Origin: Paenibacillus faecis
GTDB taxonomy: Bacteria; Bacillota; Bacilli; Paenibacillales; Paenibacillaceae
Direction: 5' to 3'
NCBI RefSeq assembly: GCF_008084145.1
Contig: NZ_VSDO01000001.1
Coordinates: forward strand, 62,001 to 126,000
Length of the DNA stretch: 64,000 bases
Part shown: piece by piece, positions 28,860 to 62,920 of the stretch
How positions within the stretch are numbered: position 1 is the stretch's first letter
How the letters are laid out: each line of letters begins with the position of its first letter
Notes under the pieces: model-generated
What the model was told of the DNA's origin: nothing
The model's input: the letters and a program-made list of their open reading frames with translations, nothing else
Database searches by the model: none
Translations under genes and position numbers: made by a program

Positions 28860-28890
28860 GCCATCTCTCCCTTTCACGTTGATTTCGCGA

Positions 28891-46906: not shown

Positions 46907-47905
46907 TTAATATATTCCGTATTGTTGAATGGCCGAGCGCAGCCGCTCGATCTCGTCCGCTCGCATTTCAAAGCCGGCGATATCGTGGACCGCCTCTTCC
47001 GGGAGGATGCCTTCCGATCCGAGGCAAGCCAGCAGCCGCAGCACATATTTGTCCATCGGGGCTGTAAAGACCGCCTGGGCGTACCCGTCCACTCTGGCGC
47101 TCAGCTCCACGAACCGCGCGTACTCCTTTGCCATGTAAGCCGTGATCATGTCGCTCTGGATATTCGGAAAGGCCGCCCCCAAGCCGACAAGCGCTCCGGC
47201 CGCTCCGCACATCAGGGAATAACCGAACATCCGGTCTTCCCCGGTAATCAGCAATTTGTCGGGGAACTCGCGTCGGATCAGAGACGCCACATCCTGCAGC
47301 GTCATCACGCTATCGAGCGCAGCCATTTTCATCCCGGCCACCTGAGGCAAAGCCAGCAGTTCCCGGAGCACCTCGGCCGAATATCTGACTCCCCCCGCTT
47401 CCTCGTATAAATAAAAAAGAATCAGGGGCAAGCCCGCCTCCGCCAGCTCGCGATGGTACTCCACAATCGCGTCGTTGCGTTCCCGTTCTCCCAGGTCGCC
47501 AAAAATGACCGGCGGGAACACCAGCAGCGCGTCCGCTCCCGCCCGGCTTGCCTCTTCGGCCATAAGCCGGCTGTCCCGCCGCCAAACCTCCCTTCGGCGG
47601 GGCCCGGCGAGCGTTGGGTCGGGTAGTGCCCCGGCTCCGGCAACCAGGATTTGATCCGGCTTCAAGAACTCTTTCCACGAATCGATGACAATCGCCCTTT
47701 CATCCCGTGACAGATGCAGTCCCCGGCCGGTATGAACCCATACCGAAACGCCCGCGATGTTTTGGGCGCACAGATACGCCGCGTAGCTGCGCTGAGCCTC
47801 GGCGTGAACGACGCCATTCCGGTATCTGGTCACCGGAACCGCCGGAACCAGGCCGCCATGCAGCCGTTCTTTCACCCGGACAACCTTGTGCGTGATCTCC
47901 GTCAT
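46907..47905 (-). CDS. DapA-family (dihydrodipicolinate synthase-like) protein
   Basis: 332 residues of the class I aldolase TIM barrel. GGLVPAVPVTRY opens like the family; VWVHTGRG replaces the usual GTTGE; the likely Schiff-base Lys is in VAGMKMAALDS. The Tyr region reads LILFYLYEEAGG instead of the common YNxPxRTG, which sets it apart from DapA, NanA and KDG aldolases. A second protein with the same unusual FYLxxAxGG pattern is encoded at 60136-61224. Probably a lyase or aldolase for a sugar acid, but this is inference. AAAGGGGAAACGGGA precedes the ATG. Confidence 0.82.
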   Translation of the reverse strand: MTEITHKVVRVKERLHGGLVPAVPVTRYRNGVVHAEAQRSYAAYLCAQNIAGVSVWVHTGRGLHLSRDERAIVIDSWKEFLKPDQILVAGAGALPDPTLAGPRRREVWRRDSRLMAEEASRAGADALLVFPPVIFGDLGERERNDAIVEYHRELAEAGLPLILFYLYEEAGGVRYSAEVLRELLALPQVAGMKMAALDSVMTLQDVASLIRREFPDKLLITGEDRMFGYSLMCGAAGALVGLGAAFPNIQSDMITAYMAKEYARFVELSARVDGYAQAVFTAPMDKYVLRLLACLGSEGILPEEAVHDIAGFEMRADEIERLRSAIQQYGIY

Positions 47906-47990
47906 TCCCGTTTCCCCTTTCCCGTTTATGTATTCCCTCTATTTTCGCTCTATTTCCTTCTATTTTCCCTCTCTTTTCCTCATATTTTAA

Positions 47991-49289
47991 TTATCCCTCT
48001 TGCTCCAAAAACCAGTTTTTCCCCCGATCCCGGTACCATTCCGTAATATCCATAAAGGAGGTGACTCCTTCCGGGTTGCGAATCTCCTCCGCGTGCCGCA
48101 AATGCAGCATCCAAGGGACTAGCCCGTGTTCGGGGTGAAAATACAGATCATGCAGCGCACGCTCTGTTTTTGCGCCTTTGCGCATACCGTAAGCGCCGGC
48201 CGGTTTTTGGAAGATCGTGTGCATCTGCAAGCTTTTTACGCCGCGCAGCGCGTATTCCAGCGCCATTTTTCCCGTACAGACGTTTCCCGTACCGGACAGC
48301 GGCGGAATCGGGCGGGCGAGCCCCTCCGCAAGCTCCAGCTTGCGAAGCAGGGTAAGCATCCGCAGATTTCTCCGGCTTAAGTCGGGTCCGCCGTATGCGG
48401 CCCCGATTTTCCCGGCAAATTCACGGGTTTGATCGTACAGCCGGTTTGCGTAGATGATATAGTCCGGCGGGGTGAAGCTGCCCTCGATCAAGGTTCGCAA
48501 TGCCCCAATCTGGAACTCGTCGGCAAACATCGCGTTCATCAGCTTGATTCCGAGAACGATCTCCCCCGGAGGAAGCGACGATTTGATCTTGACCGGCACC
48601 TCGCGCAGCCAGCGGAGGACCGCGCATTGCTGCCGGGCCCGTCCCGAACCGGCCAGCGTCGGACTAAAGTCTTTTTCCATTTGCAGCGGCCCCTCCGCCC
48701 CGGATTCCCTCCAGACGCCATGCAGCCGGCGGGTCGTATATTCGTACTCTTCCAGCCGGAATTCCTCCGCCTCTCCGCCGGGCAAATGGTATTTGCAAGA
48801 GGGGACGATCACCGTGCCATGCTCTCTCCCGATGTCCAGAGCTTTGCGAAAAAAAGCGAGATAATCCCCGAACGAGCCGTGCCACCCGCGTCCTTGCCAG
48901 GTGACATTCCAGCCGGTTTCCCCCGTTTCCTTGCCGGTGATCTTTCCGACCACCATCCGGGTCTCTTTCACGGCCCATTCTTCCATGGACCTTCTTCCGT
49001 CGGCATCCTCGGCGATGACCGTCTTGAGTACGACAAACCCGAGCCGGGCGCGGCAGTCCTCCTGAACCTGCCGGACGTTCAACGACAATTGGCCCGACGC
49101 CTTGCCGAACGGATTCCGAATCGCGCGGAGACCGTAGCGGGCAGAGACGTCCAGGCCATAGGTTTCAAGCAAATAAGTTTCGATCCGCTCCGGCAGTCCC
49201 TCGCGGAAACGTTCGTAGTCCTCGCGGATCCGGGAAACGTCCCTGCTGTCCAGCAAGGGACGGTCGGGCAGTATCAGGCTGTTGCGCAT
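47991..49289 (-). CDS. dihydroorotate dehydrogenase/PreA-like TIM-barrel protein of unknown function
   Basis: About 432 residues. NPFGKASGQLSLN, GFVVLKTV, PVKIKSSLPP, LGIKLMNAMFADEF and LSGTGNVCTGKMALEYALRGVKSLQMHT follow, in order, the FMN-barrel motifs of dihydroorotate dehydrogenase and PreA, including the phosphate-binding GTGN. Length exceeds class 1 DHOD (about 300) by a C-terminal extension. It is in a sugar/amide catabolic run, not a pyrimidine operon. Start is uncertain: ATG 49289 is six bases after GGGAGGG, ATG 49304 and 49313 are alternatives. Probably an FMN oxidoreductase of an unknown substrate. Confidence 0.7.
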   Translation of the reverse strand: MRNSLILPDRPLLDSRDVSRIREDYERFREGLPERIETYLLETYGLDVSARYGLRAIRNPFGKASGQLSLNVRQVQEDCRARLGFVVLKTVIAEDADGRRSMEEWAVKETRMVVGKITGKETGETGWNVTWQGRGWHGSFGDYLAFFRKALDIGREHGTVIVPSCKYHLPGGEAEEFRLEEYEYTTRRLHGVWRESGAEGPLQMEKDFSPTLAGSGRARQQCAVLRWLREVPVKIKSSLPPGEIVLGIKLMNAMFADEFQIGALRTLIEGSFTPPDYIIYANRLYDQTREFAGKIGAAYGGPDLSRRNLRMLTLLRKLELAEGLARPIPPLSGTGNVCTGKMALEYALRGVKSLQMHTIFQKPAGAYGMRKGAKTERALHDLYFHPEHGLVPWMLHLRHAEEIRNPEGVTSFMDITEWYRDRGKNWFLEQEG

Positions 49290-49390
49290 CTTCATCCCTC
49301 CCATGCGGCTCATCCTCCCTGGAGATGGTTCCCCATGAAGAGTTTATTCAACAGCCGCTTGGAACTGTCCTGCCCGAAAGACCCGTTTTT

Positions 49391-50575
49391 TCAGCGGGTC
49401 CGCAAAAAATCCCGGGCGAATTCCGCCAGAAAAGCCGCGCCGTACTCCAGCGCCCGCTCATCGATGGTCATCTGCGGGTGGTGAAGCGGGTAGTTTCCTT
49501 CCCCCGCCCCTTTGGCGCCGACGAGCAAAAAAGCGCCGGGCACTTGCTCCATGTAAAACGCCATATCCTCGCTGGTCATCGGGGACCGGTCCAGCGGGGC
49601 CACCGCCTCCTGGCCGAACAGGTTCAGGAGGGAGGCTTCGGCGCGCCGGATCAGGCCGGGGTCGTTGACGGTCGGCGGGTAGCCGAGCTCGTAAGCGACC
49701 TCGGCCCGGGCGTTCAGCCCGCCGGCGACCGCCTCGGCCAGCGCCGCGATCCGGCGCTGCATGTGCTCGCGCGCTTCGCTGCTGACGGCGCGCACGGTGC
49801 CGCGGATCTCGACGCGATCCGCGATGATGTTGGGCAGGCTGCCGCCGCGAATCGAGCCCATGCTGAGCACCACGGGCTCGGCGGGATCGCTCTCGCGGCT
49901 GACCAGCGCCTGCAGCGCCGCGAGCACATGCGCGGCCGCCAGAATGGCGTCGACGCCCTGATGCGGGGCGGCGCCGTGCCCGGCTTTGCCGTGGACCGTG
50001 ATGTCGACATGGTCCATGCTCGCCATCACGGTCCCGGGCCGGACGCCGAAGCGCCCGGTCGCCAGGTCCGGCCACAGATGGAGGCCGACGATGCCGTCCA
50101 CGCGCGGCGACTCCAGCACGCCGGCCTCGACCATATGCCGGGCTCCGCCCAGCATTTCCTCGGCCGGCTGAAAGATGAACTTGACCGTCCCGCACAACTC
50201 CTCCCGGGCGGCGGTCAGCATCCGGGCCGCGCCGAGCACCATGGCCATATGCCCGTCATGGCAGCAGGCGTGCATCACGCCGTCATGCTGCGAAGCAAAG
50301 GGCAGGCCCGTCGCCTCCGTTAACGGAAGCGCATCCATATCGGCGCGCACGGCGAGGCAGGGACCCGGCCGTCCCGTTTCCAGCAGGGCGACGACCCCTG
50401 TCCCGGCCACGCCCTGCCGCACGCTCAATCCCAGCCGCGTCAAAGCGTCGGCGACGAACGCGGAGGTGAGCTGTTCCCGGAAGCCCAGCTCGGGATACTG
50501 GTGCAGATGCCGGCGCACCGAGATGATTTCATCCCTATGGGCGACGGCCAGCTCTCGAAAATTACTTTCAATCAT
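49391..50575 (-). CDS. M20 family amidohydrolase/carboxypeptidase
   Basis: 394 residues. RRHLHQYPELGF, VRADMDALPL, FIFQPAEE, GLHLWP and the dimerisation-domain HGKAGHGAAPHQGVDA match hippurate hydrolase/N-acyl-amino acid amidohydrolases. The metal motif reads MHACCHDGH where the family has HACGHDGH; both His and Asp are kept. It would cleave an N-acyl or amide bond. The gene is very GC-rich (near 68%) in its central part. The start overlaps the regulator gene by 8 bases. Confidence 0.92.
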   Translation of the reverse strand: MIESNFRELAVAHRDEIISVRRHLHQYPELGFREQLTSAFVADALTRLGLSVRQGVAGTGVVALLETGRPGPCLAVRADMDALPLTEATGLPFASQHDGVMHACCHDGHMAMVLGAARMLTAAREELCGTVKFIFQPAEEMLGGARHMVEAGVLESPRVDGIVGLHLWPDLATGRFGVRPGTVMASMDHVDITVHGKAGHGAAPHQGVDAILAAAHVLAALQALVSRESDPAEPVVLSMGSIRGGSLPNIIADRVEIRGTVRAVSSEAREHMQRRIAALAEAVAGGLNARAEVAYELGYPPTVNDPGLIRRAEASLLNLFGQEAVAPLDRSPMTSEDMAFYMEQVPGAFLLVGAKGAGEGNYPLHHPQMTIDERALEYGAAFLAEFARDFLRTR

Positions 50576-51905
50576 AGTGCGCTTCCTCCAGATTCAGAGT
50601 ATAAATCTGCCTAGGCCGTCCCCGGCCCGCCGGCTGCTCCTCCCCGACGATGCTGGCCATTTCATACCGCTCCAGCGCGGCCATGATGCGCCTTGCGCTG
50701 CGAAGGGTAATGCCGAACCCCTCGGCAAGCTGCGAGGCCGTGAAAGTGGACGTTCCCAAACGCCGGCACAGCGACATCAGCTTGTTGATCGTTCCGACGC
50801 TGAGCCCGGCTTTTTTCGCCATCGAAATCAGCTCGGGGTTCTCGCTACGGGCCGAATATTCCAGCGTCATTTCGGAACCCATCGGACCGTATACGATTCC
50901 GTCCTGCATGATCAAGTAGCAGTTGCCGCCCCCTCCCGATTTGGCTTTCATCAGCGCTTCCCGCGCTTTCCCCTCGGCCTCGTTTGCGGTGCGTCCGATC
51001 CCGATTCCGATGCTGGCATGCCACTGCAGCCGTTCCAGGATTTCCAGGAGCAGGGGGGCGTCCTGAAATTTGCGGGTCACCTGCTCGATGATGCCTCGCG
51101 TCGTCACGAAAGAAACCTCATTCGAATCGCTCCATTTGATCAGCGACTGCGTCTCTTCCCCGAAGTCCACGAGAATTTGCTGAAGGATGATCTTCTTGCG
51201 CTGAATTTCGTATTCGGAGGAAGCCTCCTTGGCCACTTTGGCAAAATTGTCGATATTCATAATGCCGACGGCGATCTGTGAACTGCAAAAACGCAGGCTT
51301 TTTCCCTCAAGAAGAGCCCGGTTCAGACAGTCGCGGATCGCCGAATGGGTCGGTACCACCCGGTAGGCCGGCACACCCAGCTCTTTTAAACGGTGATAGA
51401 CCGAGGTTACGCAGGTGACCGTCGCCGACACCCGCCCCTGTTCCCACAGCCCGTGATGATAAGCCACCAGCTCTTCGTTGCTCATGCCGAATTCATACGG
51501 AATGACGTGCAGGTCTCGGGCCGGCAGACCGAGTTCGTTTAACGGCTCCTCCACCTCCTTGCGCTGCAGGACGTCCACGCTGATACGCAATTGGTCTTCC
51601 AGCCCCTGAACCCCGTGCCGGTATAAGTCGAACAGCACCTTGTAAAGGGCGGTTCCGGAATAGTACACATGCACCATCGGTTTATCGGGGGCGGCCGCGA
51701 GCGCGATCCGGTAAGGTATCGGCCCGGTAAACAGCAGAATATCCGCCTTGTCCCTCACCCGGTCGATGATCTCGAGCGTTTCCCGTTCATGCCGGTATGG
51801 GGCCGGAAACATCGCCAGCTCCGCAAAAAAATACCCGAACTCCAACACCGTTTCCACCAAATCCAAGGGACCGATCACCGCGACCCGCAGCTTGATCGTC
51901 ATCAT
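50568..51905 (-). CDS. transcriptional regulator with cyclase-like and winged-helix domains, unfamiliar architecture
   Basis: 445 residues. The N-terminal 180 residues have alternating strands (RVAVIGPLDLVETVLEFG, DILLFTGPIPYRIALAA, KPMVHVYYSG) like a PrpR-N or substrate-binding fold. About 200-340 looks like a degenerate GGDEF/GTP-cyclohydrolase III-type domain (AVGIMNIDNFAKV, HASIGIGIGRTANEAEGKAREALMKAK). The last 90 residues (FTASQLAEGFGITLRSARRIMAALE) form a winged helix. It lies among catabolic genes and probably senses their substrate. I cannot name the family. Confidence 0.65.
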   Translation of the reverse strand: MMTIKLRVAVIGPLDLVETVLEFGYFFAELAMFPAPYRHERETLEIIDRVRDKADILLFTGPIPYRIALAAAPDKPMVHVYYSGTALYKVLFDLYRHGVQGLEDQLRISVDVLQRKEVEEPLNELGLPARDLHVIPYEFGMSNEELVAYHHGLWEQGRVSATVTCVTSVYHRLKELGVPAYRVVPTHSAIRDCLNRALLEGKSLRFCSSQIAVGIMNIDNFAKVAKEASSEYEIQRKKIILQQILVDFGEETQSLIKWSDSNEVSFVTTRGIIEQVTRKFQDAPLLLEILERLQWHASIGIGIGRTANEAEGKAREALMKAKSGGGGNCYLIMQDGIVYGPMGSEMTLEYSARSENPELISMAKKAGLSVGTINKLMSLCRRLGTSTFTASQLAEGFGITLRSARRIMAALERYEMASIVGEEQPAGRGRPRQIYTLNLEEAHYD

Positions 51906-51922
51906 CCGCCACCTCCCGCTTC

Positions 51923-52795
51923 TTATCCGTTCCGTTCCGGTTGTTGCTCCATGGCAAAGTGTCGAATTTCGGCCAATGACCTTTTCGTGTTGCTGACCAC
52001 CTGGTCCGTGTTTCCCATGTACTCGAAAGAAATAAAGCCGCCATACCCCAATTCCAGTAGCGTCCGAAAAATCGTTTTATGGTCGGCGTCTCCCTGAAAA
52101 ATCGGCACCGGCTCGCTCCGGCTCCAGTCCTCATGATTCCAATGGTAATCCTTGAAGTGAACATGGCCGATGTCAGTAAAAAAACGCTTCAGGACCGGCA
52201 CCGGGTCCAGATGGTCGACGAACAGATTAAATCCGTCGTAAATCAGTTCGATGCCGGGAGCCGGGATGTCGCGGACGAGCGCCGCCAGGCTTTCGGCCGT
52301 ATCGGCCAGCGTATTGTTGTGGATCTCCACCGCGAGCCGGACTCCCTCGGAGCGGCATATCTTGGCCGCTTCCGTCAGGCCGGAGACGACCGCGTCCCAT
52401 TCCTCCGCGAGGACGGAGCGGGACGGCCGATGTCCGGCGAAGCTCCGGATCCGCGGGCAGCCGAGCTCCCGCGCCCAGACGGCGGCCGTTCGGATACGTC
52501 TGAGCTCACTTGCCGATTCTTGCTTCCCCTTGGAGAAACAGGTGTATTCGCTAATCGCCGGAACGTGGAGCCGGCGCTGTTCCAGCAGCGTGCGCAGTTG
52601 GCTGAGGGAACCGCCGCCGTCCAGGAAGCCCCGGATATGCCCGGCCCAAAGTTCGACCCCCTGCAGCCCGATTTCCTCCGCCAAGTTCAGCACGTTTTCC
52701 AAGGGTTCTTCTTTCAGCCCCGTAGAACAGAAGCTGAACTTCAGGTCCGGCTCTTTCCCCCGGTTCCAGCCATCCGCCTCGCTATGGTCCAACAT
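51923..52795 (-). CDS. sugar phosphate isomerase/epimerase (AP-endonuclease 2 fold)
   Basis: 290 residues. Xylose-isomerase-like TIM barrel: FSFCSTGLKEEPLENVLNLAEEIGLQGVELW, VRLAVEIHNNT (metal Glu and His), IELIYDGFNLF, IGHVHFKDYHW (His-x-Lys-Asp) and ISFEYMGN (Glu). These carry the metal ligands of the family. It overlaps the preceding oxidoreductase gene by 14 bases. Likely isomerises or dehydrates a sugar intermediate. Confidence 0.87.
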   Translation of the reverse strand: MLDHSEADGWNRGKEPDLKFSFCSTGLKEEPLENVLNLAEEIGLQGVELWAGHIRGFLDGGGSLSQLRTLLEQRRLHVPAISEYTCFSKGKQESASELRRIRTAAVWARELGCPRIRSFAGHRPSRSVLAEEWDAVVSGLTEAAKICRSEGVRLAVEIHNNTLADTAESLAALVRDIPAPGIELIYDGFNLFVDHLDPVPVLKRFFTDIGHVHFKDYHWNHEDWSRSEPVPIFQGDADHKTIFRTLLELGYGGFISFEYMGNTDQVVSNTKRSLAEIRHFAMEQQPERNG

Positions 52796-53762
52796 CCTGC
52801 TCCACCCCCGTCCGGTCCGATGTATAAACGGCCTCCAACGCCGCGATCACGGACCTGGCGTATTCGCCGCTGCTGTCCGGCTCCACGCCCAGTTCGATGG
52901 CCCGCAGCAAATCCTCGAACTGCAATATAAACGGGTCTTCCTCAGGGAGAGGCTGCACCTGTTCGTATTTCCCGCCTACGCTCACCCAAAGTCCTTCGGA
53001 GGAAACCAGCTTCGCCATCCCCCGGGTAAAGATCAGCTCCGTCTCGTCCCGCGCCACCCCCTCATACCCCGACTGTAAGATGACGGCGCACAGGCCGCTG
53101 TCCGTTTCCAAAAACAGACAGCCGCTGCCTTCCACATCCCCCCGGGGGCCTTCGTAGGTCACTTTGGCTTTGACTCGCCGGACCCGGCTGTCGGTCAGCC
53201 ACTGAACCTTGTCGATCGAGTGGGCGCCAAGATTCATCAGGATGCCGCCGCCGGATTTTTCCTTTTCCAAAAACCATCCGGGCCGGTTATCCCGGTAATA
53301 GTACTGATGCCGCGTGTCGTGAATCGCCAGCAGCCGCCCGAGCTCACCGCTTTGGATCAGCCGTTTGGCCAGTATATTGGCCGGCTTGTAATGCTGGGTA
53401 TGTCCCACCATCAGCTTGACCCCGGCATGCTTAACCGCGGCCAAAATATCGTCGCACTGCGCGGTATTGAGCGCCATCGGCTTTTCAAGCAGCAGGTGGC
53501 ATCCCTGCTCCGCGCACCATACCGCACAGGGGGCGTGCAAGTAATGCGGAAGCGCGATGACGGCGATATCCGGCCTTTCTCGCAGCACCATTTCCCGGTA
53601 ATCGCGGTAGTAGGAGATGCCGTATTCCTCCGCCAGCGCTCTCCCTTTGCCCTCGTCCGTGTCGGCCACGGCCGCCGCCTCCAGCTTGTCGAGCCGCCCC
53701 ACCGCGTCCAGATGATTGCGCGCGATGATGCCGCCGCCGATCAGAGCTACGCGATATCTCAT
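52782..53762 (-). CDS. Gfo/Idh/MocA-family oxidoreductase
   Basis: 326 residues. ALIGGGIIARNHLDA (Rossmann), LLLEKPMALN (EKP with the catalytic Lys), MVGHTQHYKP, and GGGILMNLGAHSID with the conserved His. It acts on a sugar or inositol-type substrate with NAD(P). First gene of the catabolic operon leading through isomerase, regulator, amidohydrolase and DHOD-like genes. GAGGAGGG ribosome site. Confidence 0.9.
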   Translation of the reverse strand: MRYRVALIGGGIIARNHLDAVGRLDKLEAAAVADTDEGKGRALAEEYGISYYRDYREMVLRERPDIAVIALPHYLHAPCAVWCAEQGCHLLLEKPMALNTAQCDDILAAVKHAGVKLMVGHTQHYKPANILAKRLIQSGELGRLLAIHDTRHQYYYRDNRPGWFLEKEKSGGGILMNLGAHSIDKVQWLTDSRVRRVKAKVTYEGPRGDVEGSGCLFLETDSGLCAVILQSGYEGVARDETELIFTRGMAKLVSSEGLWVSVGGKYEQVQPLPEEDPFILQFEDLLRAIELGVEPDSSGEYARSVIAALEAVYTSDRTGVEQDVGP

Positions 53763-53862
53763 GTCGTTCCCTCCTCTAGTGCTTCATCAGACAACCCTGC
53801 TTGCATGGAATGCCTTGTTCATATTTTCTGTTCGGAACTAGCAAGTTGATGACTCGTTCACG

Positions 53863-53881
53863 ATCGTTCCTAATCGTTCCT
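53863..53881. promoter_or_regulatory. tandem direct repeat upstream of the catabolic operon
   Basis: ATCGTTCCT occurs at 53863-53871 and 53873-53881, one helical turn apart, with a weaker third GATTCCT copy at 53882-53888, about 100 bases before the oxidoreductase start. The arrangement suits an activator binding site. Confidence 0.4.
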
Positions 53882-53967
53882 GATTCCTCCTTGACTCCTG
53901 CAGTTTCAGATCAATAGAATCCACCTTTCTGGTGTTGCCCGATACCCTTTTACAGCCTGGGGAGGCA

Positions 53968-54400
53968 AATAAGAGGCATTTGTGCCGTAATTTTATCGAA
54001 TTCGGCCTTCGAGGCACTATTGTTGCATTAACCCGAGGGATCTAGTCGCTGTGACCACCTCTCTTTGAATCCGGGCCGGTGGATAAGGGTCTTTTGGGCC
54101 GCTATTTTGTCGAATTTGGCTCTTCGGGGAGAAATAGAGGTCATAAAAGGCCTTATTTTTGGGAAAAGCGGGCAGAAAACCGATTTTTGGGCTCACATCG
54201 GAAAAATAAGACCCTTTTTGGCCGCTATTTTGGCAGTGAAAGCGAATTTGGCCGAAATAACGGCCTAAAATGCCGCTATTGAAATGGGCGGCAAGTGAGA
54301 TAGCGGATAGGCAGCATCGTGTTCATGCAACGCCGGTAATTAGGCCTTTTTTGGCCGCTATGGTTCTCGTGGAACCGAATCGGTCAGAGATAGCGGCTAG
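53968..54400. repeat. degenerate tandem intergenic repeats, about 120-bp period
   Basis: Four related copies start near 53968, 54082, 54203 and 54337. Common pattern: AATAAG..CCTTTTTGGCCGCTAT, a short variable part, CGAATTTGGCC, then GAAATA. The last three share CTTTTTGGCCGCTAT almost exactly. The 820-base interval 53763-54582 contains no gene I can support; small open frames inside it simply follow the repeat. Confidence 0.65.
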
Positions 54401-54528
54401 ATCTAATCCTGCGCGCCAGTTTAACCCGCTACGCCGAGACGAAAAGTCTTAAATAGGCGCCCCCCATGTTAGAGTTTTAGTGCAACACCGTGCTCATTTC
54501 CCAGGTGAAGCCACCCCCCGGCCGGATT

Positions 54529-54618
54529 TCCTCGGGTCACTTGATCCCTGCGGAGTTGCTGCCCTGGCACAACGTCCTCGGGTTACTTAATCCCGGCGGA
54601 GTTGCTGCCCTGCACAAA
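54529..54618. repeat. 46-bp tandem duplication of the permease 3' end
   Basis: 54529-54572 and 54575-54618 are about 85-90% identical. The second copy is the end of the permease gene (coding QGSNSAGIK and stop); the first copy, just past the stop codon, also codes QGSNSAGIK followed by TGA in the same direction. Confidence 0.75.
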
Positions 54619-55407
54619 ATATTTCTCCGCGAACAGGAACACGAGCAGGATCGGGATCAGGCTCATCAGCGCGGCGGCCACCATGTACTGCTCATTGCCG
54701 GACCATTGCCCCGCCATGGACAAAATCCCAATCGGCAAGGTGAAGTTCTCCTTGGAGGTCAGGAAGATAGCCGGGGACAAAATTTCATTCCATTTGGTCA
54801 TGAACGTAAACACGGCCAGCGTCGCGAACGTCGGCTTGCACATGGGCAAAAAGATCCGCCAGTAGATCTGAAACGGATTGCATCCGTCCAGCTTGGCCGA
54901 TTCCTCGTAATCTTTGGGGATCGCGAGGAACGCCTGCCGCATCAGGAAGATGCCGAAAGGCTGGGCCAACCATTCGATCAGCCAGAGCGGAGTGAGCGTA
55001 TCCAGCATATGCAGCGACTTGAAGATGACGAATTGCGGAATGATCAGCACCACCGGAGGAATCATCATCGTGCCGAGCACAACGAGAAACAGCGTGTTTT
55101 TTAAGGGAAATCTCAATCTGGCAAACGCGTAGGCCACCATCGAACAAGAGAGCAAGGCCCCGATGACGGACAGCACGGTTACGATGACACTATTGGTCGT
55201 GTATTGTCCGAAGGGACCCAATTTCCATACCTCGGCGTAGTTGTCCCACTTGACCGGATTGGGAATCCACTCCGGCGGTACGCGGGTGTACTGGGCGTAA
55301 GATTTCAGTGAATTGAAAATCGTCGTTAAAAACGGCAAGGTCATGATGAGCGAGCTGGCAATAATCACCGTATACCCGGCGATCTTTCGCATCCGGTTTA
55401 TCTTCAT
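54583..55407 (-). CDS. CUT1 ABC sugar permease, MalG type
   Basis: 274 residues with six membrane helices; EAA loop ESAKLDGCNPFQIYWRIFLPMCKP. Ends YFVQGSNSAGIK. Twenty-five bases after the MalF-type permease gene. A duplicated copy of its last codons lies immediately downstream. Third gene of the importer encoded with the heparinase-type enzyme. Confidence 0.92.
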   Translation of the reverse strand: MKINRMRKIAGYTVIIASSLIMTLPFLTTIFNSLKSYAQYTRVPPEWIPNPVKWDNYAEVWKLGPFGQYTTNSVIVTVLSVIGALLSCSMVAYAFARLRFPLKNTLFLVVLGTMMIPPVVLIIPQFVIFKSLHMLDTLTPLWLIEWLAQPFGIFLMRQAFLAIPKDYEESAKLDGCNPFQIYWRIFLPMCKPTFATLAVFTFMTKWNEILSPAIFLTSKENFTLPIGILSMAGQWSGNEQYMVAAALMSLIPILLVFLFAEKYFVQGSNSAGIK

Positions 55408-55432
55408 ACCGTTCCCTCCTTTCTCTTTGGAC

Positions 55433-56404
55433 TCATTCGTAATGCACCCATTTTTTTTGCAGCACGACTTGAACCACCGTCAGCAGGAACAGGATCACGA
55501 ACAGTACCCAAGCGATCGCCGAGGCGTAACCCATCCGCAGGAACGAGAATCCTTCCTGATACAAATAAATCATCAGCACCAGGCTGGCCTTGTTGGGCCC
55601 TCCCGCGGAAGAAGCGTCCATCGCTCCGCCGGTCATGACATAGATCTGCTCAAACGCCTGAAACGTGGAAATGGTGCTTAGAATAAGCACGAGAAAGGTC
55701 GTTCCGGAAATCAGCGGAACGGTAATATGCCGGAATTTCCGCAAGGTCCCGGCCCCATCGATTTCCGCAGCTTCGTACACATCGGACGGCACATTTTGCA
55801 GCCCCGCAAGGAAAATCACCATGATATAGCCGATGCCCTTCCAGACCGCGATCATCACCAGCAGCGGAATGACGAGATGCGCATCCTGCAGCCATTTTTG
55901 CGGATCGAGGCCCAGCTTGATCAGGAACGCGTTGGCGAACCCGAACCGGGGATTGAAGATCGCGTCCGACACGTACATAATAACGGTCCAGGAAGAGATG
56001 ACGGGCAGAAAATGCGCCAGCCGAAACAGCTTCAGCACCCGTAGTTTCTGATTTAAGGCCACGGCAAGAATGAGGGCAAGGATCGTCTGAAGCGGGACGA
56101 ACAAAATGGTAAAATAAACGGTATTCCAGAGCGCTTTCCAAAATACGGACTCATTAAACAGTTTTGCGTAGTTGTCCAGCCCCGTCCATTTCGGCGGGTT
56201 CAGAATATCGTAGTCCGAGAAACTGAAGTATAGCGAGGCCAGCAAAGAGCCCAGCACAAAAACGATAAAGTGAACAAGATAAGGGGTCACCATCAGGAGG
56301 CCCCACTTGCCGTCGCTATCCAGCCGTTTTTTCCGCTTTATGGCCGGCAGATCGCCGCCCGTTCTTTTTGACAAGACAGTTTCCGTATTTTCCACCATGG
56401 TCAT
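55433..56404 (-). CDS. CUT1 ABC sugar permease, MalF type
   Basis: About 323 residues, six membrane helices after a charged 35-residue N-terminus; EAA loop EAAEIDGAGTLRKFRHITVPLISG. Starts at 56407 (GTG), 56404 and 56398 are all in frame and none has a strong ribosome site; ATG 56404 is chosen. Partner of the MalG-type permease. Confidence 0.9.
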   Translation of the reverse strand: MTMVENTETVLSKRTGGDLPAIKRKKRLDSDGKWGLLMVTPYLVHFIVFVLGSLLASLYFSFSDYDILNPPKWTGLDNYAKLFNESVFWKALWNTVYFTILFVPLQTILALILAVALNQKLRVLKLFRLAHFLPVISSWTVIMYVSDAIFNPRFGFANAFLIKLGLDPQKWLQDAHLVIPLLVMIAVWKGIGYIMVIFLAGLQNVPSDVYEAAEIDGAGTLRKFRHITVPLISGTTFLVLILSTISTFQAFEQIYVMTGGAMDASSAGGPNKASLVLMIYLYQEGFSFLRMGYASAIAWVLFVILFLLTVVQVVLQKKWVHYE

Positions 56405-56527
56405 CACACTTTCTGTTAGCGATTTGGAGGGCGGGGACTTCCGCCGCAGTCCTCTTGCCGAGAGCTGCTTGACGGCGGAGCCCCGACCAGGCCAGCCATT
56501 AGTGAACGGCGCTTTGTGGCGTTATTT

Positions 56528-57916
56528 CTATTTCTTGTAGAATTCGTCCAGCACTTGCTGTACTTCGGTGTCCGCCTTCTTTAAAGCTTCGTCGACGGGA
56601 ACCTCTCCTTCGAACGCCCGGTTGATGTTGTCGTTGAATTTGCCGACCCATTCGCTCCAGACGGCGTTGACGTCCAGGGTGCCGGCGAATTCGAAGCTGT
56701 CGAGAAACGCCTGTTTGTTTTCGGGCTTGCCGCTTAAAAACTCGCTGGAATTGGCGACCGATTTTTTAACCGGAACCGCTTCGCCGAGGGAGGCCCATTC
56801 CTTCTGTACTTCGTCCTCGGTGGCCCAATATTTGATCCATTCCCAAGCCGCGTCGCCTTTGGCGCCTTCCGCCTTTTTATTGATCACCCAGGAGTTGGCG
56901 ATCACCGGCGAGAACCGCTTCCCTTCCGGCCCCTTAGGCAGTATGGTTACATCGTAGTTCAGTTCGGCCGCGTTGGCGTCGATCGTGCGGGCGTAGATGC
57001 CGATCCGCATGGCCGCCGCTTTGCTCGGAAACGGAGCCATATTGCTCTGGAAGCTCTTGAGATCCGAAGGCGTCGTCAACAGTTCCCGGTTCATGCCGTC
57101 GACGATCCAATCCAGCGCCTTTTTGTTTTCCGGGCTGTTGATCACCGACTTCGTCAACGTTTCGTCCAGTACGCCTCCTCCGAACGACTTGAGTACCGTC
57201 ATCCAGCCTTCCGTAATGCTGAAGAACGTCAACCCGTACTGGCTGATCTTGTTCTTGTCGAAAGCGGGGTCGGTCGCAAACTTTCCGGTGGAATCCTTCG
57301 TCAGCTTCTCGGCGGCGCTCTTCAGGTCGTCCCAGGTCCAATCGGCGGTGGGATATTCCACTTTGGCCTCATCGAACATATCCTTGTTATAATATAGGAC
57401 CGCGATTTGAATGCCTTGCGGAACCCCCCAATACTTCCCGTTCGCATCCTTGTTGAAATCCAGCCCGAAGTAATCGTCTTTGTTCAGGTCTTGTTCGATG
57501 AGGGGCGTCAAGTCTTTCAGCACGCCGCGCTCCGCGTACTTCGGAACGAGCACGCCGTCGGAGAGCCAGAGATCCGGGGCGCTTTCGGCGGCGATTTGCG
57601 TATCCAGCTTTTGAAAAAACTGATTATAGGGGGATGATTCCGTTTTAATCGTAATATTCGGATGTTTCACCTGGAACTTGTCGATCAGCTCCTGCATTTT
57701 GTCGTCGGACTGGGCCGAGGAATAGAAGCCAAGCCTGAGTTCCACTTTTTCCGCCTGTTCCGCCTTCCCCTTGTCATCCCCGCCCGCTCCGGGACTTTCG
57801 GCATTTCCTCCGTTCGACTTCCCTCCATTCCCGCCGGAACACGCCGTCAGGAGCATAGCCGTTACCAGTGTCAGACTGAGCAGTAAGGTTCCCCATGATT
57901 TCAGCTTGCCTTTCAT
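56528..57916 (-). CDS. extracellular sugar-binding lipoprotein
   Basis: 462 residues from ATG 57916, seven bases after GGGGGG. Lipobox in AMLLTACSGGNGG. VELRLGFYSSAQSDDKMQELIDKFQVKHPNI and TESSPYNQFFQKLDTQIAAESAPDLWLSDG are typical of cluster-1 binding proteins. It delivers its ligand to the two permeases downstream; no ATPase gene is present. The ligand is probably what the heparinase-type protein next to it acts on. Confidence 0.92.
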   Translation of the reverse strand: MKGKLKSWGTLLLSLTLVTAMLLTACSGGNGGKSNGGNAESPGAGGDDKGKAEQAEKVELRLGFYSSAQSDDKMQELIDKFQVKHPNITIKTESSPYNQFFQKLDTQIAAESAPDLWLSDGVLVPKYAERGVLKDLTPLIEQDLNKDDYFGLDFNKDANGKYWGVPQGIQIAVLYYNKDMFDEAKVEYPTADWTWDDLKSAAEKLTKDSTGKFATDPAFDKNKISQYGLTFFSITEGWMTVLKSFGGGVLDETLTKSVINSPENKKALDWIVDGMNRELLTTPSDLKSFQSNMAPFPSKAAAMRIGIYARTIDANAAELNYDVTILPKGPEGKRFSPVIANSWVINKKAEGAKGDAAWEWIKYWATEDEVQKEWASLGEAVPVKKSVANSSEFLSGKPENKQAFLDSFEFAGTLDVNAVWSEWVGKFNDNINRAFEGEVPVDEALKKADTEVQQVLDEFYKK

Positions 57917-57950
57917 CGCATGACCCCCCATAAATGATGATCCTTAAAAA

Positions 57951-57965
57951 AATAAAGCGCTAACA
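57951..57965. promoter_or_regulatory. cre-like site upstream of the binding protein gene
   Basis: AATAAAGCGCTAACA contains the core AAAGCGCTAACA of many Bacillus cre sites, with two mismatches to WTGNAANCGNWNNCW. It lies between promoter and ribosome site. Confidence 0.5.
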
Positions 57966-58043
57966 AAACATGTCAGGTATGATTTCTCTCCTCCGAAATT
58001 TTAAATCGTTCCCTTGATGTGTCTAATTTGTGAACTTAACCCT

Positions 58044-58081
58044 AAAATAAGGGAACCGGAATTAAAGGTCAACGTCCTTAA
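58044..58081 (-). promoter_or_regulatory. promoter of the ABC importer with shared 11-bp box
   Basis: Minus-strand TTGACC (58072-58067) and TATTTT (58049-58044) with a 17-base spacer. The box TTAAGGACGTT (58081-58071) abuts the -35 and recurs exactly at 62344-62334 before the epimerase gene. Confidence 0.5.
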
Positions 58082-58093
58082 TAAGACCGTATT

Positions 58094-60139
58094 CTAGATT
58101 TTTACCAAATATGTTTGCGGCGCTCCCCCGGTCCCGTCTTCCTTGACAAGCAGCACTTCGCCTGTAAGATGGTTTCCGGCAAACCGATATCCGCGGACCC
58201 CTTGATGGGAAAAGACCGCATACTCCCGCTTCTCCCCCCGCCGGACGGAAATGGCTGTAACCTTGTCGGAAGAAATCGGTTGTCCGTAGCTGTCCAGCAC
58301 CTCGATCGTTTCAATCTGAGGTGCCTGCTCTTCCCGCAGTTTTTGCGGATACAGCAGCGACACGAATCGGGTAAGTCCGCTTCCGGTTTGCGTAAACACC
58401 GCTCTGACGGTAGGCTCTTTCCGATTGTAATGACGCGACACCCAGGCGGATTCGATTTTCTCGTCAGCCGGCAATACCGGGATAATCCGCAAAGCGGTTT
58501 CCTTGTCGGTGTCCGCCGCCGTCACACTTCCATCCGCTTCCAGCCGGACTTCCAAGCCTTCGGCAAAGTGAAACGGCAATGTGTAGTCATGCGGCTCCCG
58601 CGATTTGCAAGTATCGACGACAATCCAATAATCCGGTTTGACAAACAAAATTTGCCGACGGACCTGTACCGGGTCTTCGAGACGGAAGTAGCCGTCATGG
58701 CTGCCTTGGACGTAGTCGAAGGAATCGGTCGCCGACCACCAGCGATCCAGCGGATTCGCCACTTCGTCCCATTTCCAGGAGTCGAGGTAGGTGGAAATGG
58801 TGGCTCCGTCGACGCCTACGGTGTTATGCTGCAAGGATTCCTTAAAATAACGCCTGAATTCATCCTCCATGTACGTGTATCGACCGGGGTCGGTCAGAAA
58901 CTCCCGGCCGCCCGCGAACAGGCTGATATGCAGCAGGTCGTCATGGCCATGCGCCCGGATGGCGTCCATATGTCCGGCGTCGAACAGCAAATAACCGGCC
59001 TCCGGATGCCAGCCGGTCCGCATCACGGCATAACCGCTTTGCGGGAGTTCCAGAGAGTCGAACGGCGGGTTTGCCGTCTGAATTCGTGCATAGCGATCGT
59101 AACCCGATTCGCCGAAGAACCATATACCTTCATAATCAAGCGTAGCATACCCCATTCTTTTTAAATCGCCTCGGCCGAACAAGACGGCGCCTCGACTTAG
59201 CACGTCACGGATATCGGTCCCGTCGCTGTCCCCCAGCATCGGCTGGCGGCCGTCCGGCTGAATCAGCGCCAAGGAGGCCGTGTACATCCGTTGCAGCGTC
59301 CGCTTCAACTCGGCGGGCAGTTCAATCCCGTTCCGTTCGGCGAGCCAAACCGGTTCGAACAGGCAATGCAGTACTTCATGGTGGTACATGGTACACTGCT
59401 CGTTGTGCATGCCGTCCTCGAACACCTGTACCGCGCACATCTCGACAAGCCGCTTTACCGCTGTGTCCAGCCAGGCTTCCGAAACGTCCAGCTCCGGATA
59501 CAGCAGGGCGATTTGGAACAACCCGTTCGTCTCCAGGAACCCCCAGTTGCTTTGCCGGTCATGCGGGGTGTAGGCGATGTTTAGATACATGCCGTGAAGC
59601 TTAACGGCTTCCCGGAACAATTCTTCTTCTTCGTCCCGCCACAACGCCGATACGTTGACGCAGTGATATCCCTTCAACCAGTTGGCGATCCGGATACCGC
59701 TGTCCAGCTTGCGCCACGTATCCTTCACATTATAAGCCCGGTCCGCGCTGGCCCGAACCTCCTGTTCCGTGAGCGGGTTTTGTTTCAGCCAATCTTTCAT
59801 CAAGCTGATGAAGCCCCGCACATATTTCTCGTCCTCCGTCAGCCAGTAAGCCTGCCCCAATTCGCTCATATAACGGGCCCGGTTCAGCATGACCATCCAT
59901 TCGATGTCCCCTCGGTACCGGTAAGTCCAATCGATGCCGTCCGGAAACTCTACCTCCGTCTCACAGCGTTCCATGTCCCAGCGATGGGTAAAAATAAAAG
60001 TGCGTTCGCACGCCAGATCGGCCCGATGCAAAACTTCCCGAACTTCATCTGGCCACTCCTTCATTACCGTTGACACGATAAAACCGCGATCCCGCGGCTC
60101 CCAAAAAAAGCGGCGTTCTCTTGTCGCCGACGACTTCAT
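58094..60139 (-). CDS. heparinase II/III-family protein
   Basis: 681 residues from ATG 60139, which overlaps the stop of the aldolase-like gene (ATGA) and has GGAAGGAG upstream. An (alpha/alpha) toroid N-terminal half (WMVMLNRARYMSELGQAY, SNWGFLETNGLFQIALL, HNEQCTMYHHEVLHCLF) is followed by the heparinase C-terminal beta domain: GYAVMRTGW, DAGHMDAIRAHGHDDLLHISLFAGG (metal His), and RYFKESLQHNTVGVDG. Lyases of this fold cleave uronic acid-containing polysaccharides or oligosaccharides such as heparin or alginate. No signal peptide, so it likely acts on imported oligosaccharides. Substrate unknown. Confidence 0.88.
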   Translation of the reverse strand: MKSSATRERRFFWEPRDRGFIVSTVMKEWPDEVREVLHRADLACERTFIFTHRWDMERCETEVEFPDGIDWTYRYRGDIEWMVMLNRARYMSELGQAYWLTEDEKYVRGFISLMKDWLKQNPLTEQEVRASADRAYNVKDTWRKLDSGIRIANWLKGYHCVNVSALWRDEEEELFREAVKLHGMYLNIAYTPHDRQSNWGFLETNGLFQIALLYPELDVSEAWLDTAVKRLVEMCAVQVFEDGMHNEQCTMYHHEVLHCLFEPVWLAERNGIELPAELKRTLQRMYTASLALIQPDGRQPMLGDSDGTDIRDVLSRGAVLFGRGDLKRMGYATLDYEGIWFFGESGYDRYARIQTANPPFDSLELPQSGYAVMRTGWHPEAGYLLFDAGHMDAIRAHGHDDLLHISLFAGGREFLTDPGRYTYMEDEFRRYFKESLQHNTVGVDGATISTYLDSWKWDEVANPLDRWWSATDSFDYVQGSHDGYFRLEDPVQVRRQILFVKPDYWIVVDTCKSREPHDYTLPFHFAEGLEVRLEADGSVTAADTDKETALRIIPVLPADEKIESAWVSRHYNRKEPTVRAVFTQTGSGLTRFVSLLYPQKLREEQAPQIETIEVLDSYGQPISSDKVTAISVRRGEKREYAVFSHQGVRGYRFAGNHLTGEVLLVKEDGTGGAPQTYLVKI

Positions 60140-61224
60140 CGTTTCGCTCCTTCCAGCCACGCATCAAGATGACGGCCGATAAACGTGTCATCGTTCAGAT
60201 GCGGGTAAGCCGCATAGACCCGGTCGATTTCCTCCAACTGACCGGGGGACAACTCCTCTTGCGGATTCAGGCACCAGCGGCCCTCCAGCAACCCTTGACG
60301 CCGCAAAACTTCATGGATGCCCGCGATGCTGCCGCGAAACCGATGCGCAGGATCAAACAGCGCCGCGTTGACATCCGTAATCTCCTGACCGCGCGTCAGC
60401 AGCTCAAGGGGAATCGCCGCGTTTCCCCCTTCACGCCGCAGCGCTTTAATTTCCTCCAGCAATTCGACCGCCTTGGAGGTCCAAACCGCCCAGTGGCCGA
60501 GGAGACCGCCGACAATCTCCTTCTCCACCGTCACACCGCCGAAGCGGAAGGTGTACTTCGTCAGCAAATCGGCCACGATGTTGTCGTCATTGCCCGTGTA
60601 TAAGGCGATTTCGTCCCGCCGCTCCGATCCGCAAACCGCCCGCACGACATCCAGGGTCTGATAGCGGTTAAACGGAGCGATCTTGATCGCCGCAACGCCC
60701 GGAAGATCCGCCAGGCTGCGCCAGAAGGAATAAGACAGCAGACGCCCCCCGACCGCTGGCTGCAAATAAAAACCGAACACCGGTATAACCTCCGTGATCG
60801 CTTGCACGCGTTCCAGCAGCTGTTCTTCGCTCCAATCGTCCAAGCCGCCCATGCTGACCAGCCCGAGCTCGTAGCCGAGCGAGGCCGCCAGCTCCGCCTC
60901 GGCGAGCGCCTGCTTCGTCGGGCCGCAGATGCCGGCGATCTTTAGAAAGGGCCGGTCCAGATGGGCCGCGCTCACCTCCTCCGCGGCAAGCCGCAGCACC
61001 GGTTCATATAGCCCAATCTGCGGTTCCCGGATTTCAAATTGCGTGGTGTGTACGCCCACCGCGATCCCGCCGGCTCCGGAAGCGAGATAGTATTTCGTCA
61101 ACGCCCGCTGCCTTGCCTCATCCAACCGGCGGGAAGCATCGAGCGCAAGCGGGTGCGCGGGAATGACGGTGCCGCCCATGAGCAGCTCGCGGGCTTCCCG
61201 GCTTAGTTCCTTGACCGCATTCAT
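60136..61224 (-). CDS. DapA-family (dihydrodipicolinate synthase-like) protein
   Basis: 362 residues. ATG 61224 overlaps the epimerase stop (TGATG), with GGGAGGGGG upstream. GGTVIPAHPLALD, GAGGIAVGVHTTQF, VFGFYLQPAVGG and VAAIKIAPFNRYQTL (likely Schiff-base Lys) follow the aldolase barrel but differ from DapA and NanA at the substrate motifs. It shares the FYLxxAxGG pattern with the protein at 46907-47905. Probably a retro-aldolase acting on the sugar acid released by the neighbouring enzymes. Confidence 0.83.
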   Translation of the reverse strand: MNAVKELSREARELLMGGTVIPAHPLALDASRRLDEARQRALTKYYLASGAGGIAVGVHTTQFEIREPQIGLYEPVLRLAAEEVSAAHLDRPFLKIAGICGPTKQALAEAELAASLGYELGLVSMGGLDDWSEEQLLERVQAITEVIPVFGFYLQPAVGGRLLSYSFWRSLADLPGVAAIKIAPFNRYQTLDVVRAVCGSERRDEIALYTGNDDNIVADLLTKYTFRFGGVTVEKEIVGGLLGHWAVWTSKAVELLEEIKALRREGGNAAIPLELLTRGQEITDVNAALFDPAHRFRGSIAGIHEVLRRQGLLEGRWCLNPQEELSPGQLEEIDRVYAAYPHLNDDTFIGRHLDAWLEGAKR

Positions 61225-62240
61225 CAGAACGCCCCCTCCCTTTCCTGAAAATGCGTCGGCTTGCCCAAGGTTTCGCCGCCCGAGTCCACCCACCCGGCCG
61301 TCCACTCCATCATTTGCCGCAGCGTCACTTGGGGATAGCCGAGCAGCCGATGGCTGACGGAGGCGTTATTGAGCAAAGCCGTCGGACCCTCTTCGCCGAC
61401 CAATACCGGTTCGGTTCCCAGCATCTCACCGAACCGTTCGGCCAGCCAGCGGACCGACACCGTTTCCGGTCCCGTCACATTAAGCGTGACCGGCGGCGAA
61501 TCGCAAAGCAGCAGAGACCGGATTGCCATTTCGTTCGCGTCTCCCTGCCAAATGACATTGACCATGCCCATGTTTAAATCGATCGGCCGGCCCTCCTTCA
61601 CCGCGCTCGCTACCTCCAGCAGAATGCCATAGCGCAGATCGATGGCGTAGTTTAACCGGAAGTTCAACAGCGGTGTCCCGTTTTTTCGGGAAAAATATTC
61701 AAAGACCCGTTCCCGTCCGAGACAGGACTGCGCATACTCGCCGACCGGCGAAGGCGGCGTCAGTTCCGTGGCGCCCCCCCGGGATAATGGGGTGAACGGA
61801 TAGATATTTCCGGAGGAAAAAGCCACGATCCTGGCATCCTTGAATTTTTCGGCGACGCGTCCAGGCAGATAGGCATTCATCGCCCAGGTGAAATACTCCC
61901 TTCCGGTCGTACCGAATTTATTGCCGGCCATGTAAATGACATTCCGCGCGTCCGGAAGCTGTTTTAACGCTTCTTCCGACAACAAATCGGCCGCAATGGT
62001 CTCGATGCCTTCAGCTTCAAGTTCCTGCTGCAACCCGCCCGAGGAGAACCGCGACACGCCGATGACACTGCCCGGTTTACCCGCGGCCTTCAAGGCCCGT
62101 TTGGCCAGCTTCGCCAGGCTTGGCCCCATTTTTCCGCCGACCCCTAAAACAAGGATGTCCCCGTCCAATCCCGCCAAATCCCCGATCAATCGTTCGGAAG
62201 GCGTGCTGAGCGCATCTTCCAGTTCGGTTACCGTTTTCAT
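61224..62240 (-). CDS. NAD-dependent epimerase/dehydratase-family protein
   Basis: 338 residues. ILVLGVGGKMGPSLAKLAKRAL is the nucleotide-binding motif; VIYMAGNKFGTTG, VAFSSGNIYPFTP and EYAQSCLGRERVFEYF contain the Ser, and Tyr/Arg in place of the usual YxxxK. Extended SDR fold. First gene of an overlapping trio with the aldolase-like and heparinase-type genes. GAGGTGATGGG ribosome site. Substrate unknown, likely a uronic acid derivative. Confidence 0.83.
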   Translation of the reverse strand: MKTVTELEDALSTPSERLIGDLAGLDGDILVLGVGGKMGPSLAKLAKRALKAAGKPGSVIGVSRFSSGGLQQELEAEGIETIAADLLSEEALKQLPDARNVIYMAGNKFGTTGREYFTWAMNAYLPGRVAEKFKDARIVAFSSGNIYPFTPLSRGGATELTPPSPVGEYAQSCLGRERVFEYFSRKNGTPLLNFRLNYAIDLRYGILLEVASAVKEGRPIDLNMGMVNVIWQGDANEMAIRSLLLCDSPPVTLNVTGPETVSVRWLAERFGEMLGTEPVLVGEEGPTALLNNASVSHRLLGYPQVTLRQMMEWTAGWVDSGGETLGKPTHFQEREGAF

Positions 62241-62417: not shown

Positions 62418-62909
62418 TTATGCCGTTTGTTTTTCTTTCCGCAATCTTTGTCTGGCCCGATACAGCAAAATTTTAAAATGGGAGAGCGCCACGCCCATCA
62501 GGTCAGCCGACTCCTGGTATGTAAAGCCATGGACATCATACAACAACACGGCATGCTGTTGATTCGGCGGAAGCAGGGAAAGCATCTTCAACAGCTCCTC
62601 ACGGCTTTCCACGGAAATTAAGCTTTCCTCGGGCGTATCCTCGCTCGCGACATTGTAAAAGAACTCGTTCTCGTATGAGGAGGAACGGCTCTCTTTGCGC
62701 AGCCGGTCGATATATGCGTTGTGGGCCACCCGGAGCAGCCAGGCTTTCGTCTTCTTTCCTTCGAACTCGTTCAGCTTCCCGCAGGCTCTGCAGAACGTTT
62801 CCTGCATCAGATCCTCGGCATTGTGATGATCCCGGCACAAATAGAACAGATACCGGTAAACGTCATTTTTATATTCACGGTAGATTAAATCCATGGATGA
62901 ATTATTCAT
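62418..62909 (-). CDS. ECF-type RNA polymerase sigma factor
   Basis: 163 residues from ATG 62909 after GAGGAGG; a longer upstream frame lies in another gene. Region 2: DLIYREYKNDVYRYLFYLCRDHHNAEDLMQETFCRA; region 4: LPPNQQHAVLLYDVHGFTYQESADLMGVALSHFKILLYRARQRL. Regions 1 and 3 are absent, as in ECF factors. No anti-sigma gene follows; the only partner is the carboxypeptidase gene 11 bases upstream. It probably controls envelope functions. Confidence 0.9.
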   Translation of the reverse strand: MNNSSMDLIYREYKNDVYRYLFYLCRDHHNAEDLMQETFCRACGKLNEFEGKKTKAWLLRVAHNAYIDRLRKESRSSSYENEFFYNVASEDTPEESLISVESREELLKMLSLLPPNQQHAVLLYDVHGFTYQESADLMGVALSHFKILLYRARQRLRKEKQTA

Positions 62910-62920
62910 GATGAACCTCC

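Follow-up and report, generated by a model that had tools for sequence, protein, structure and literature searches.

In the uronate pathways that lead from a lyase through 4-deoxy-L-erythro-5-hexoseulose uronate (DEH) to 2-keto-3-deoxygluconate (KDG), beta-elimination comes first, and a 2-keto-3-deoxy acid is then cleaved to give pyruvate. According to excerpts of PMC9537276, the enzymes of a second system, the ong oxidative chitin pathway of Pseudoalteromonas prydzensis, comprise a D-aminoacylase-like deacetylase, a pyridoxal phosphate (PLP)-type deaminase, a RidA protein, a KDG kinase and a periplasmic hydrolase. Here we analyse a ~15-kb run of genes on the minus strand, at positions 46907-62240, of a 64,000-nucleotide stretch of DNA (hereafter the window) from the 6.34-Mb genome of Paenibacillus faecis (GCF_008084145.1, contig NZ_VSDO01000001.1, positions 62,001 to 126,000). 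A preliminary description had proposed that this run encodes a catabolic system built around a heparinase-type protein and two atypical DapA-like proteins, and every gene it named is present there, on that strand, as judged from the list of open reading frames (ORFs) and from Pfam and NCBIfam matches. We conclude that the cluster is real and conserved, with an arrangement beyond chance, and that it consists of known kinds of enzymes in a set not described in the open-licence papers listed, with a widespread core pair formed by its first two genes, EPI and ALD.

61224..62240, minus strand: EPI, extended-SDR epimerase-like protein (PF01370, 28.3 bits)
60136..61224, minus strand: ALD, atypical DapA/N-acetylneuraminate-lyase-like protein (ORF to 61305, likely start 61224)
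58094..60139, minus strand: HEP, heparinase II/III-type lyase (ORF to 60160; both Pfam domains)
56528..57931, minus strand: SBP, CUT1 solute-binding protein with a hydrophobic N-terminus (SBP_bac_8/SBP_bac_1)
55433..56407, minus strand: PM1, ABC permease 1 (Pfam)
54583..55407, minus strand: PM2, ABC permease 2 (Pfam)
52782..53762, minus strand: GFO, Gfo/Idh/MocA oxidoreductase (Pfam/NCBIfam)
51923..52795, minus strand: APE, AP_endonuc_2 (xylose-isomerase-like) TIM barrel (ORF shares 14 bp with GFO)
50568..51905, minus strand: REG, regulator family with a weak GGDEF-like domain (21 bits against a cut-off of 30)
49391..50575, minus strand: M20, amidohydrolase of the TIGR01891 subfamily (387.6 bits against a cut-off of 153.75)
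47991..49313, minus strand: DHO, remote DHOD-like protein (Pfam matches of family members)
46907..47905, minus strand: DAP, second DapA-like protein (PF00701, 49.8 bits against a cut-off of 22.1, E 2.6e-13)
45985..46827, minus strand: aldo/keto reductase directly downstream of DAP, a possible part of the cluster

With the starts suggested by relatives, the coordinates bear out the overlapping codons described earlier for the first three genes: the ATG of ALD at 61224 shares one base with the stop of EPI, and that of HEP at 60139 overlaps the stop of ALD as ATGA. Homologues of ALD were found in 71 of the 146 genomes searched (the window's own genome counted, and G099 via a short fragment only), and 57 genomes with such homologues supplied 60 stretches, none longer than 20 kb; 59 are centred on ALD homologues and the remaining one (L084) on a weak DAP-like match, without EPI and ALD. 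HEP is present in 21 of the 60 stretches, all from the genus of the window. In each of these 21 loci EPI, ALD, HEP, SBP, PM1, PM2, GFO, APE, REG and DAP keep identical order and strand, DAP of L089 being detected by tblastn only, at the edge of its stretch. The two halves of the run, EPI to PM2 and GFO to DAP, are therefore not separate. The neighbourhood check in other genomes that the preliminary description had called for finds them joined in 21/21 HEP-bearing loci, and its claim of a single unit thus holds as far as linkage goes, but within the window 820 bp of repeat-rich DNA part the halves. A motif around GGCCGCTATT recurs in this gap (53763-54582) in five 24-nt copies that match the reference copy at 71-100%; a 17-base form of it, allowing up to 3 mismatches, has 5 matches in the whole window against 0.43 expected, 4 of them within the gap.

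Not all members are equally constant: M20 is found in 12/21 HEP-bearing loci and DHO in 15/21, compared with 21/21 for DAP. The relatives also contain, within the run, genes that the preliminary description missed, namely those for an Fe-S L-serine dehydratase. The genes for its subunits, sdaB and sdaA (Pfam; together sda), lie between ALD and HEP in 12/21 loci, and these same 12 hold M20, while the other 9 hold neither (Fisher p 3.4e-6, ignoring shared descent). Among 38 EPI-ALD loci without HEP, 15 have sda and M20, 13 sda only, none M20 only and 10 neither. The aldo/keto reductase likewise follows the cluster in at least four relatives' loci (L034, L037, L040 and L061), some of the stretches ending before the region downstream of DAP.

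Public genomes, one per species, were scanned with the ALD profile; at least 589 stretches were confirmed, of which the best 80, a set biased to close relatives, were analysed. EPI occurs in 79 of these 80 loci, and in 78 of the 79 the two genes are direct neighbours on one strand. The single miss is a Balneolaceae metagenome-assembled genome (MAG; L120), where ALD lies 167 bp from the contig end, and the single non-adjacent case a Pirellulales MAG (L172), whose EPI-like gene is 3.8 kb away and on the opposite strand. Given this adjacency and its two exceptions, the adjacent pair can be taken as established for Bacillota and Bacteroidota. We conclude that EPI-ALD is a near-obligate pair with a much wider distribution than the type of locus that includes HEP, a point absent from the preliminary description. 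HEP is found in 2/80 of these loci, M20 in 22/80 and sdaA in 19/80, and the HEP-type cluster occurs among named public genomes in P. tuaregi (L095) and P. timonensis (L100), both Paenibacillus. In many Bacillota the context reads REG-EPI-ALD-sda-M20-Gfo-importer, and homologues of REG (28-35% identity) occur near EPI-ALD in loci without HEP. The Bacteroidota context is a GSDH sugar dehydrogenase, an Nramp-like membrane protein and EPI-ALD, sometimes with M20; across the 80 loci a GSDH-type sugar dehydrogenase is near the pair in 9, an Nramp-like protein in 23 and an enolase-superfamily protein in 7. EPI-ALD is thus a general module, of which the window holds the lyase-fed form. No function for the pair has been assigned in the open-licence literature, among the matches listed; an answer for one Paenibacillus cluster would supply the annotation of a core step in carbohydrate use across soil Bacillota and Bacteroidota, and may show how acidic amino sugars are recovered by bacteria from one another's envelopes.

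The canonical metal motif of Nramp proteins is DPGN. In the Nramp-family proteins next to EPI-ALD (23/80 loci, nearly all Bacteroidota; e.g. L113:6102-7340) it is replaced by GPGS, GPSK or GTGS in 24/24 copies, and these neighbours may carry a non-metal cargo, perhaps the substrate. In Daejeonella, a long sdaA-type protein and one resembling N-acetylmuramic acid 6-phosphate etherase are encoded within 8 kb of EPI-ALD (L118:17840-18661, minus strand), which adds another amino-sugar gene to the surroundings of the pair.

With moderate confidence, we interpret the cluster of the window as one catabolic unit in which an acidic sugar that may be N-acetylated is broken down by a lyase-fed, non-phosphorylating route, with class I aldol cleavage as the last step. 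Gene content, linkage and catalytic residues can be read directly, while the substrate and every reaction that follows are what we infer. Oligosaccharides of the acidic sugar would be taken up by the CUT1 transporter, whose binding protein and two permeases are present in the cluster as had been claimed. HEP would then cleave beside a uronic-type residue by beta-elimination, and the resulting 4,5-unsaturated unit would open to a 5-keto acid, which amounts to an acid of the 2-keto-3-deoxy type. The other end would be adjusted in a reductase/dehydrogenase step by EPI, GFO or the aldo/keto reductase, and ALD, as a class I pyruvate-type aldolase, would split the 2-keto-3-deoxy-type acid into pyruvate and an aldehyde with no phosphorylation. 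The partner sugar is probably handled by GFO and APE, through oxidation combined with isomerisation or a lyase reaction, and DAP could be a second aldolase/dehydratase. Were the sugar N-acetylated, M20 would deacetylate an amino-acid-like fragment, which in relatives would be deaminated by L-serine dehydratase.

The proposed route resembles the lyase-DEH-KDG pathways in its beta-elimination and its pyruvate-yielding cleavage. It differs in having DapA-like proteins where those pathways have KduI, KduD, KdgK and Eda-type 2-keto-3-deoxy-6-phosphogluconate (KDPG)-aldolase, none of which found a match among the cluster genes in Pfam or NCBIfam. If the amino-sugar reading holds, the cluster is also like the ong pathway, in which, on the part of PMC9537276 consulted, an N-acetyl amino sugar acid is treated as an amino acid, being deacetylated and then deaminated to a 2-keto-3-deoxy acid. 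Here, by contrast, a lyase and an ABC importer stand beside M20 and the DapA-like proteins, joined in relatives by an Fe-S serine dehydratase; at E<=1e-3, no members of the OngB (D-aminoacylase-type), OngC (PLP-type) and KdgK families were found among the genes of the cluster in the window. In line with the preliminary description, no described pathway with this gene set was found in the open-licence PMC literature, among the matches listed.

HEP matches the N- and C-domains of heparinase II/III with 150.2 and 134.8 bits against Pfam gathering scores of 22 and 24. Its Asn205, Tyr259 and His404 (ORF numbering) align with Asn240, Tyr294 and His424 of heparinase III, the catalytic triad as tabulated in PMC12088678, and are invariant in the 22/22 copies aligned. 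On what could be drawn from that paper, the domain pair and the Asn/Tyr/His triad are shared both with heparinase III (PL12) and with the toroid lyases of PL35, PL15, PL17 and PL39. HEP is set apart from them by a best score of 82.9 bits to solved heparinase III, and it is not a HepC member, with 123.7 and 111.3 bits lying far below the NCBIfam equivalog (PL12) cut-offs of 700 and 600. It also differs in lacking an obvious signal peptide, as judged from its low N-terminal hydropathy, no signal-peptide predictor having been run. Because its N-terminus is not markedly hydrophobic, HEP probably acts in the cytoplasm on imported oligomers. The earlier view of HEP as a lyase is thus consistent with its heparinase fold and intact triad.

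The same triad, being of the PL12 type, would also suit a plain uronic-acid route, which we regard as somewhat unlikely. HEP would there release ordinary unsaturated glucuronate or galacturonate, ALD would be a non-phosphorylating KDG aldolase, and M20, sda and nag genes would serve a hexosamine partner or be incidental. DAP does give a weak match to the archaeal KDG-aldolase model (35 bits against a cut-off of 390), and one locus (L115) has a ketose-bisphosphate aldolase, a NagA-like and a NagB-like protein beside EPI-ALD, which would fit a uronate-hexosamine polymer. The occurrence of GH88 in the genome also speaks for this route: it was found in 7 places, 6 of them above the cut-off, and one place falls within the window (23511-24545). 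Against the route, the cluster genes themselves include no GH88, and M20 and sda travel as a pair in HEP-bearing loci. For a reading in terms of glycosaminoglycan disaccharides the distribution of GH88 is not decisive.

The aldol cleavage that we favour as the final step depends on ALD. The window copy has no Pfam match of its own at 1e-3; in its family, 34/36 scanned members match the dihydrodipicolinate synthase (DHDPS) model PF00701 at E<=0.1 (best 1.2e-8), and in a profile search of solved structures the best match had E 5.5e-8 and was limited to positions 19-219 of 356. Lys208 and Tyr180 (ORF numbering) align with the active-site Lys and Tyr of N-acetylneuraminate lyase (NAL), and both are invariant in 59/59 aligned copies, the fragment L085 having been left out. 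(In L085, G030:C1:4205098-4206243, the ALD homologue was matched in three pieces and is probably broken.) ALD thus resembles the NAL/DHDPS superfamily of TIM-barrel class I aldolases in its active-site Lys and Tyr, and differs from it in being ~50 residues longer and in a replaced carboxylate motif, to which we return below. Profile comparison shows DAP to be a homologue of ALD (hhalign 97.4%, E 1.4e-11), and its Lys193 is conserved in 21/21 copies. The two atypical DapA-like proteins of the preliminary description are both there, with Schiff-base Lys and Tyr kept. In EPI the Gly motif and Tyr169 are conserved in 60/60 copies and Ser142 in 59/60, with one gap. DHO of the window has no Pfam match; 15/16 scanned members of its family match the dihydroorotate dehydrogenase (DHOD) model PF01180 at E<=1 (best 2.1e-5), and a profile search of solved structures found no relative for it, only two chance-level matches.

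The sda-M20 pairing suggests an N-acetylated three-carbon fragment, and the earlier proposal of an N-acylated substrate gains some support from this link in relatives. Carried to its most specific form, our interpretation would be that N-acetylhexosaminuronic acids are degraded by a novel pathway without phosphorylation, with EPI-ALD as its core shared by Bacillota and Bacteroidota, which we consider unlikely as it stands. HEP would yield a 4,5-unsaturated 2-acetamido uronate, and its open 5-keto form, reduced at C1, would be a 5-acetamido-2-keto-3,5-dideoxy acid. ALD would cut this between C3 and C4 into pyruvate and 2-acetamido-3-hydroxypropanal, and oxidation of the new aldehyde (the former C3) would give N-acetylserine. 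By a count of carbons and configurations, D-gluco and D-galacto amino sugars would lead to the L form once the Fischer projection is turned over. M20, as an L-aminoacylase-type enzyme, could then free L-serine, from which serine dehydratase would produce a second pyruvate and ammonia. Such an N-acetyl-L-serine route would explain the presence of M20 and serine dehydratase together. A Vi-antigen-lyase precedent was sought in the open-licence literature, with nothing useful found.

The co-occurrence of sda and M20 would also agree with an amino-aldonate route. Oxidation of a hexosamine would there give a 2-acetamido aldonate, from which M20 would remove the acetyl group; a serine-dehydratase-like protein would convert the resulting 2-amino-3-hydroxy acid to KDG, which ALD would cleave. 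The order of reaction types equals that of the Ong chitin-oxidation pathway as far as the excerpts of PMC9537276 describe it. We nevertheless hold this route to be very unlikely: it leaves HEP without a role, the Ong route is likened to D-amino acid catabolism in the same excerpts, and SdaA itself points elsewhere. The one relatives' copy scored (L034) matches TIGR00718, L-serine ammonia-lyase, with 396.3 bits against a cut-off of 243.2, and the SdaA of the locus is the only SdaA homologue in 6/11 searched genomes that have a locus copy (a 12th, G039, lay outside this sample). Since the score is above the cut-off and the protein is the sole SdaA in six genomes, it appears to act on ordinary L-serine. 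In an SdaA tree, the 12 copies from HEP-type loci group with three off-locus copies (G008, G003 and G030), apart from the other rows, in a long-branch join that may be false; H_G011 and H_G013, on extreme branches and probably in the wrong frame, were disregarded. A single fixed difference separates HEP-type-locus from off-locus copies, at position 268 (Lys versus Arg; H_G011 and H_G013 included, one exception per group). The tree grouping would fit sda as a specialised amino-sugar-acid deaminase, while the NCBIfam call and the sole-homologue count speak otherwise. A close M20 elsewhere in the M20-less genomes was considered and rejected, the best match being 44-45% in the nine of them compared with 67-75% among locus copies. 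In G026, the nearest genome by ALD (76%), an M20 at 74% lies on another contig and SdaA reaches only 56%; its contigs are short.

A number of findings weigh against the catabolic unit that we propose. In ALD, V-H-[ST]-T stands in 59/59 aligned copies in place of the pyruvate-carboxylate motif, which in DHDPS and NAL is of the G[ST]TGE type, and other chemistry is therefore possible. Active extended SDR enzymes have the catalytic set Ser-Tyr-x3-Lys; EPI is without the usual Lys, the position four after Tyr being Cys in 37, Thr in 15 and Ser in 8 of 60 copies, and because the Lys is absent, though Gly motif and Tyr are present, an ordinary SDR mechanism for EPI is doubtful. The cluster contains neither a glycoside hydrolase nor a secreted lyase. 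M20 and sda are missing from 9/21 HEP-bearing loci. In Bacteroidota M20 is often present without sda, several loci having it after ALD, which argues against a strict link between the two. The window locus has M20 but no sda, the sole SdaA homologue of its genome (52% identity) lying elsewhere. M20 also scores to the NCBIfam models for carboxypeptidase CpsA and for DoeB2, both under the cut-off, and may be a peptidase instead. NagA- and/or NagB-like genes within ~10 kb of EPI-ALD count in favour of the unit, as do the GSDH-type dehydrogenase and the enolase-superfamily protein near the pair in other loci, but the raw count for the Nag-like genes is only 8/80 loci (four Bacillota and four Bacteroidota); two NagA-like representatives score above the NCBIfam nagA cut-off, and the sole NagB-like representative does not pass.

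The missing SDR Lys of EPI and the missing GTTGE-type motif of ALD would agree with a reading in which EPI-ALD is not an aldolase step at all but, say, a pair that conditions many different substrates as a dehydratase, epimerase or lyase. The window would then combine separable modules under a common regulator instead of encoding one linear pathway. The many unlike contexts of the pair also favour this, as do M20/sda and DHO, which come and go. We think it improbable, given that HEP, the importer, GFO, APE, REG and DAP stay with EPI-ALD in 21/21 HEP-bearing loci.

Directly upstream of EPI, at 62418-63865 of the window, lie genes for a sigma-70-family factor, resembling extracytoplasmic function (ECF) factors, and an S11 peptidase; the sigma factor is kept in 8/21 and the peptidase in 7/21 HEP-bearing relatives' loci. 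At the other end, just past the aldo/keto reductase, is an IS110-family transposase (44389-45408, plus strand). Separate carbohydrate genes at 23511-28877 encode the GH88 protein, a GDSL esterase and a CUT1-type binding protein. A Big_7/fn3 protein of the window (5238-7619, plus strand), part of which matches a solved chain named as a putative GH97 (E 1.4e-11), shares 63% identity with a protein flanking relatives' clusters (compared with its L042 copy); this L042-type protein lies on the opposite strand, directly downstream of the cluster, in the 9 HEP-bearing loci without sda and M20.

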